From NCBI GenBank assembly GCA_902560815.1, contig CACENP010000008.1:1-64000 (forward strand): a stretch of DNA of 64,000 bases. Direction: 5' to 3'. Position 1 is the first letter of the stretch. The number at the start of each line of letters is the position of its first letter. This stretch comes from an uncultured Pelagibacteraceae bacterium. Lineage in GTDB: Bacteria > Pseudomonadota > Alphaproteobacteria > Pelagibacterales > Pelagibacteraceae. This document shows positions 57,842 to 59,631 of the stretch, one piece after another. The notes under the pieces were generated by a model. It did no database searches, had not been told where the DNA came from, and worked only from the letters and a program-made list of their open reading frames with translations. The position numbers and the translations under genes were made by a program.

Positions 57842-57899
57842 AAATAATCCTTGTTTAATTATAAATTAGTTTGTAAATACCAGCATAAATTAATACGCA

Positions 57900-57962
57900 C
57901 ACAATTTTTGGTTTAATAACCCTCCGGTCCTTAATTGGAAATAATTGTGGTGGCATAACCGG
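57900..57962 (+). ncRNA. Candidate structured rpsB leader with pseudoknot
   Basis: By eye: CACAATT (57900-57906) pairs AATTGTG (57943-57949); enclosed hairpin GGTT-TAAT-AACC (57910-57921); CCGGT (57924-57928) pairs ACCGG (57958-57962) just upstream of the rpsB start, giving a pseudoknot topology. Confidence 0.65.
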
Positions 57963-57971
57963 GAAATATAT

Positions 57972-58763
57972 ATGAAAATACCTAGTGTAACTATTCAACA
58001 ATTATTAGAAGCTGGCGTACATCTTGGTCATAAAACTTTACGATGGAACCCAAAAATGAAAAAATATATTTTTGGTAAGAGAGATTCAATTCACATCATT
58101 GATCTAACTCAAACTTTAGAATTAGTTAATGTTGCGCTTACAGAAATTTATAAAGTTATTTCTAACAATGGTAAAATTCTTTTTATATCAACAAAAAAAC
58201 AAGCCTCTGATGCAATTGCTGAAATTGCCAAAGATACAGACCAGTATTTTGTTAACTATCGTTGGTTAGGTGGCATGTTGACTAACTGGGGTACTATTTC
58301 AAACTCAATCAAAAAGCTCGAAAAATTAGATTTAGATTTAGTTTCAGAGAATAGAGGTTTTACAAAAAAAGAACTTTTAAAAATGAGTGTAAAAAGAGAT
58401 AAACTTCAGAAATCACTTGGCGGAATTGCAAAAATGAAAAAAATTCCAGATTTAATTTTTGTAATTGATACAAATTATGAATCATTAGCTATCAAAGAAG
58501 CAATTAAACTCAACATACCTATCATTGCTATTTTAGATACAAATTCTGATCCCGAAGGTATTAACTTTCCTATACCTGGAAATGATGATGCTAGGAGATC
58601 TATTGATTTATATTGTAATTTAATTAAAGAAACAATTGAAAATGCAAAAAAAGAAATTCTAATTACTGATGAAAAATTGCCTAAAAAAAATGAAAGTGTA
58701 GATCAAAAAAAAGTTTCAATAGACATAAAAAAAGAAACAATCAATAAAGAAAAAAAAATTTAA
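57972..58763 (+). CDS. rpsB: 30S ribosomal protein S2
   Basis: Start placed at [39 protein letters not shown]. Confidence 0.97.
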
Positions 58764-58779
58764 TTAACTCTTCAATAAA

Positions 58780-59631
58780 ATGAGTGATTTAGAAAAAATT
58801 AAACAACTAAGACAATCTACAGGTGCTGGGTTTAAAGATTGTAGCGCTGCACTTAAAGAGTCTGGTGGCGATATTGATAAAGCTGTTGAAATTCTTAGAG
58901 TTAAAGGTATTTCGAAGGCATCAAAAAAAATGTCTCGTGATGCAAAAGAAGGTGTAATTGCAATAAGTGGAGATAACGTAAAAACTTCTATTCTTGAGGT
59001 AAATTGCGAAACTGACTTTGTTGCAAAAAACGAAGATTTTATTAATTTTGTCAAAGAATTAAGTGAGATTAATAATAAAGTTAATTCTGATTTAGATAAA
59101 TTAAAGAAAATAAAAATGAAAAATGAAAAAAATGTTGAAGAGAATCTTGTTTCTATGATTGCAAAGATTGGTGAAAAAATAACTTTAGGCAGATCTAAAA
59201 CTTTGGAACATCAAAATTCAAAAAATTATTTTTATTTACACACAGTAGTAAAAGATAATTTATCTAAGCTTGCTGTAATATCATCCTTGAGTTGCGAGGA
59301 AAAATCAGAAAAACTGGACACATTCGGTAAACAATTATCAATGCATATCGCAGCCTCAAACCCAATAGCTATAAATAGCGATGATATAAAAAAAGAAATT
59401 TTAGATAAAGAATATGAGCTAATTACAGAAGAACTTAAAAATTCAGGTAAACCTGAAGATATAGCAAAAAAAATTAGTTCTGGTAAAATGAATAAGTTTA
59501 AAGAAGAAAGTAGCTTAATGACACAACAATGGGTTATGGAACCCAAAAAAAAAGTATCAGATATAATAAAGGAATTAGATCTTAAAGATTTAAAAATTGT
59601 TGATTTTTATAGAATCAAGATTGGTGACTAA
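58780..59631 (+). CDS. tsf: Elongation factor Ts
   Basis: [48 protein letters not shown]. Confidence 0.97.

Follow-up and report, generated by a model that had tools for sequence, protein, structure and literature searches.

A known rpsB leader RNA in its SAR11 form, with a predicted pseudoknot, in the dnaE-rpsB gap of a Pelagibacteraceae genome

The stretch of DNA analysed here (the window; 64,000 nt from an uncultured Pelagibacteraceae bacterium) carries between dnaE and rpsB an element which, by its sequence and predicted fold, is the SAR11 form of the rpsB leader RNA and as such already known. We give a probability of roughly 0.88 to the whole explanation, namely the known rpsB leader in its SAR11 form, with regulation by ribosomal protein S2 (uS2) inferred. 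The first-pass annotation of the window had read the gap as a pseudoknotted, likely autoregulatory leader and had suspected that a related motif was perhaps already described. This was correct: the rpsB motif was reported in 2009 (Meyer et al.) from the gap between dnaE and rpsB (873155-873283) in 'Ca. Pelagibacter ubique' HTCC1062 (PMC2704228). A pseudoknotted, probably autoregulatory rpsB leader is also the published reading of that P. ubique gap (PMC2704228), which supports the earlier reading, with the regulation in SAR11 itself resting on analogy. Working from raw sequence, the analysis thus confirms a regulatory RNA already published for a group that is among the most abundant of marine bacteria, and adds covariation evidence for the rpsB-leader pseudoknot. 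The small additions made here are the compaction of the leader towards the start codon and a gap in the Rfam threshold, by which the element is missed across the sampled order.

The gap spans 57842-57971, the 130 nt originally given for it, and lies in the gene order lolC/E, lolD, dnaE, rpsB, tsf, frr, uppS, cdsA, dxr. The features discussed below are the following.

57850..57879, forward strand: promoter-like CTTG-(17 nt spacer)-TAAATA, a pattern enriched among SAR11-order leaders
57896..57906, forward strand: 5' strand of P1 (3 bp, bulged A57899, 7 bp), compensatory changes in 63 leaders
57910..57921, forward strand: P2 hairpin GGTT-TAAT-AACC, present in all distinct leaders
57924..57928, forward strand: 5' strand of the pseudoknot, CCGGT, in junction J2-3, near-invariant in SAR11 and covarying in other Alphaproteobacteria and in Gammaproteobacteria
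57929..57938, forward strand: P3, 2 bp (CC/GG) as in the published P. ubique motif, with weak support
57943..57952, forward strand: 3' strand of P1, AATTGTGGTG, compensatory changes in 63 leaders
57958..57962, forward strand: 3' strand of the pseudoknot, ACCGG in 120 of 121 leaders and ACCGA in one
57972..58763, forward strand: rpsB, ribosomal protein S2, 263 aa from ATG (TIGR01011, 315 bits over cut-off)
58780..59631, forward strand: tsf, elongation factor Ts (TIGR00116 over cut-off), presumably co-transcribed with rpsB

An in-frame TTG at 57945 was considered as the start of rpsB and rejected, since in the ATG form the alignment to the S2 model begins at residue 6 and, in every leader read, the ATG lies 14 codons ahead of a conserved motif.

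All three pairings of the first-pass annotation were found where it had placed them. The inner 7 bp of P1 join CACAATT (57900-57906) with AATTGTG (57943-57949), GGTT (57910-57913) pairs with AACC (57918-57921) in P2, and CCGGT can pair with ACCGG, which ends 9 nt upstream of the ATG at 57972. The outer stem had been given as 7 bp; the pairing stands, and the stem is longer, continuing beyond the bulged A57899 with C57898-G57950, G57897-U57951 and C57896-G57952 to a total of 10 bp. The published motif includes P1, P2, P3 and the J2-3 pseudoknot, with a P3 of 2 bp in P. ubique and room for a short or absent P3 in general (PMC2704228). The window has the same anatomy in the same gap: the element lies directly upstream of rpsB (57896-57962), its long P1 ends in a junction that holds P2 and a P3 of only 2 bp, and J2-3 pairs with a 3' extension after P1.

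An Infernal scan with the Rfam family of the motif (RF01815), a check proposed with the first-pass annotation, finds it at 57896-57980 with 32.5 bits (E 8.9e-5), the sole good match in the genome. A default Rfam scan of the window gave no match, because the score falls short of the family's gathering score (40 bits), which is a cut-off of the database and no feature of the biology. The window and all sampled SAR11 genomes differ from the family in this respect, as RF01815 reached 40 bits in none of the 297 sampled genomes of the order; automatic annotation will therefore miss the element in all 297. Genome G011, of the same genus as the window's, has an RF01815 match of 33.3 bits at 873211-873292, on the interval of Meyer et al. 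A model built from 63 SAR11 leaders (R1) scores 89.5 bits on the window, which belongs to its training set. In 123 of 147 genomes it finds a single strong match of 47-90 bits, with the next best scoring about 22, and the listed genomes that lack an R1 match yielded no S2 gene either. A second weak match to both RF01815 and R1 (18-21 bits), elsewhere at G000:C1:113288-113378, was dismissed as chance.

For comparison within the order, 120 leaders were located through the position of the rpsB gene rather than through an RNA match, giving 121 with the window, and covariation was scored on 63 non-redundant leaders. A conserved fold (P1 with the bulged A, P2, a short P3 and the junction-tail pairing) precedes rpsB in every genome of the order examined. 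The proposed alignment of many SAR11 leaders bears out P1, in which seven of the ten pairs have changed on both sides and 94.0% of cells are paired (63 leaders). The covariation score of the whole structure in this set, 0.242, was equalled by none of 500 shuffles (which give 0.111) and compares with at most 0.092 when the partner strand is slid, a control which corrects for relatedness while the shuffles do not. RNAalifold on A1 recovered six P1 pairs and no more. A P2 hairpin of at least 3 bp is present in 118 of 118 distinct leaders (73% of shuffles) and one of at least 4 bp in 68% of them (36% of shuffles), with stem sequences as different as GGT/ACC, AGGGC/GCCCT and ATAGC/GCTGT. P3 stems of at least 3 bp are not above chance (65% of leaders, 55% of shuffles). 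These comparisons argue strongly for a conserved P1 and lend moderate support to P2. As to the pseudoknot, CCGGT is found in the junction of all 121 leaders and all five pairs can form in 120; the pairs are near-invariant and show no covariation among the 63 leaders, so that inside the order the pseudoknot rests on conservation.

Outside the order the matching pseudoknot strands of the compared sequences change together across classes. CCGGT/ACCGG is usual in other Alphaproteobacteria, among leaders picked by their RF01815 match, a choice that may favour canonical leaders. CTGGT accompanies ACCAG in all four of the parsed leaders that carry the latter, but is missing from 77 of the 78 with ACCGG (Fisher p = 3e-6, uncorrected for relatedness); one more leader, L195, was read directly as CTGGT/ACCAG, and the five span four families. 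In three further leaders the tail reads ACTGG, which can still pair with CCGGT through a G-U. The pair that is C-G in SAR11 thus changes to U-A in these other Alphaproteobacteria and to G-C in Gammaproteobacteria, among them E. coli, where the strands are GGGGT/ACCCC; other Gammaproteobacteria have TGGGT/ACCCG or CGGGT/ACCCG. Taken across classes, this is strong comparative support for the predicted pseudoknot. The first-pass annotation had let its reading depend on compensatory changes in the three helices: these are present in P1 and P2, absent from the pseudoknot within SAR11 and present in the pseudoknot in wider taxa.

Transcription of the leader probably begins within the gap. Since a generic sigma-70 scan gave no promoter, an order-specific pattern was tried, and CTTG followed by TAnnn(T/A) at 15-19 nt spacing is found in 56 of 121 SAR11-order leaders, where 3.3 are expected from base shuffles. 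The CTTG...TAAATA block of the window is accordingly a likely promoter of the rpsB mRNA and, given its presence and the enrichment across the order, the leader RNA probably begins about 15 nt before P1.

The SAR11 leaders also differ from other alphaproteobacterial rpsB leaders in their distance to the start codon. In the 121 SAR11 leaders the median distance from the end of the pseudoknot 3' strand to the start codon is 8 nt, and only five have a Shine-Dalgarno 4-mer after the tail; for 87 leaders of other Alphaproteobacteria the corresponding figures are 17 nt and 79. The placing of the pseudoknot in the ribosome-binding region by the first-pass annotation therefore holds for SAR11 in particular. 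In one family of the order (f2) the sequence ACCGGAG puts a GGAG partly within the pseudoknot strand. The anti-Shine-Dalgarno of the 16S rRNA is intact and keeps CCTCCTTT.

Autorepression by S2 has been established by experiment for the E. coli leader only, and we extend it to SAR11 by analogy. According to a review (PMC10931766), uS2 of E. coli, when it exceeds the 30S subunits, acts via the leader to repress translation of the rpsB-tsf mRNA (Aseev et al. 2008); it requires bS1 as partner, a small deletion in a conserved bulge can abolish control, and the operator reportedly does not include the ribosome-binding site. The E. coli rpsB-tsf leader (RF00127, t44) shares with the window a P1 of CACAC...GTGG type, a junction strand that pairs with the ...AACC tail and a position upstream of rpsB-tsf; it differs in the sequence of its pseudoknot, in longer and unlike inner stems and in a separate Shine-Dalgarno outside the operator. 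RF00127 has no match in the window's genome at E <= 0.01. In E. coli and at 30 further t44 loci, apparent counterparts of the P1 and pseudoknot strands can be seen. The gammaproteobacterial t44 and alphaproteobacterial rpsB families appear to be a single leader that Rfam keeps as two unlinked families. The bulged A57899 may correspond to the conserved bulge of E. coli, and a 579-aa protein with six S1 domains, encoded in the window's genome, makes a bS1 partner available.

By this analogy S2 made in surplus to the 30S subunits, with S1 as its probable partner, would bind the pseudoknotted leader, and the bound leader would block translation of rpsB and hence expression of rpsB-tsf. Because the 3' strand of the SAR11 pseudoknot occupies about -14 to -10, its stabilisation should directly hinder 30S binding; this occlusion step may not carry over from the known system, because the E. 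coli operator leaves the ribosome-binding site free. At somewhat less than even odds, the SAR11 leader may have been shortened, with the pseudoknot 3' strand replacing a lost Shine-Dalgarno and S2 feedback then acting by direct occlusion, unlike in E. coli. The E. coli rpsO and alpha-operon operators (for uS15 and uS4) likewise place a pseudoknot at the ribosome-binding site of a ribosomal-protein mRNA, according to the same review (PMC10931766), but are unrelated to the window in sequence, fold and ligand, and serve as an analogy only. If the shifted pseudoknot truly covers the ribosome-binding site, SAR11 would offer a compact natural version in which to test the unclear mechanism of S2 feedback.

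The fold might also be kept for ribosome loading, as an S1-dependent standby site or enhancer, or for mRNA stability, rather than for S2 feedback. A structured leader could help initiation because the genes of the window show no enrichment of Shine-Dalgarno 4-mers before their starts (6 of 57 ORFs of at least 120 aa, with approximate starts, as against 5.6 in shuffles), and pseudoknots are described as high-affinity bS1 targets in the review (PMC10931766). We nevertheless regard such a role as improbable: in E. coli, S2 represses in vivo a leader with this same anatomy (PMC2704228, PMC10931766), and the element is tied to rpsB. Still less probable is a trans-acting small RNA. Rfam types both RF01815 and t44 as 'Gene; sRNA', despite their cis-leader appearance, and E. 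coli tff/T44 bears the annotation of a putative small RNA; however, the element runs into the start region of rpsB, where no terminator was found, its position before rpsB is kept in all genomes read, and in E. coli the region exerts its effect on rpsB-lacZ in cis (PMC2704228). Chance complementarity in an AT-rich gap, with no conserved RNA behind it, would suit the weak single-sequence evidence (the folding energy of the single sequence is no better than that of shuffles, z = 0.21, and 82% of dinucleotide shuffles of the gap hold some 7-bp Watson-Crick stem, so that one sequence would not prove the fold, with 4.6% also holding a GC-rich crossing 5-mer), but is refuted by the compensatory changes in P1, the covariation of the pseudoknot across classes and the single strong R1 match per genome.

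Downstream of the leader, tsf and frr overlap at 59631, and pyrH (UMP kinase), whose usual place is between these two genes, is absent there. TIGR02075 (pyrH) is over cut-off near rpsB in none of the eight genomes of the window's family, seven of which are at least 99% complete, and is over cut-off close to rpsB in two genomes (G002 and G004) of the sister family f2.
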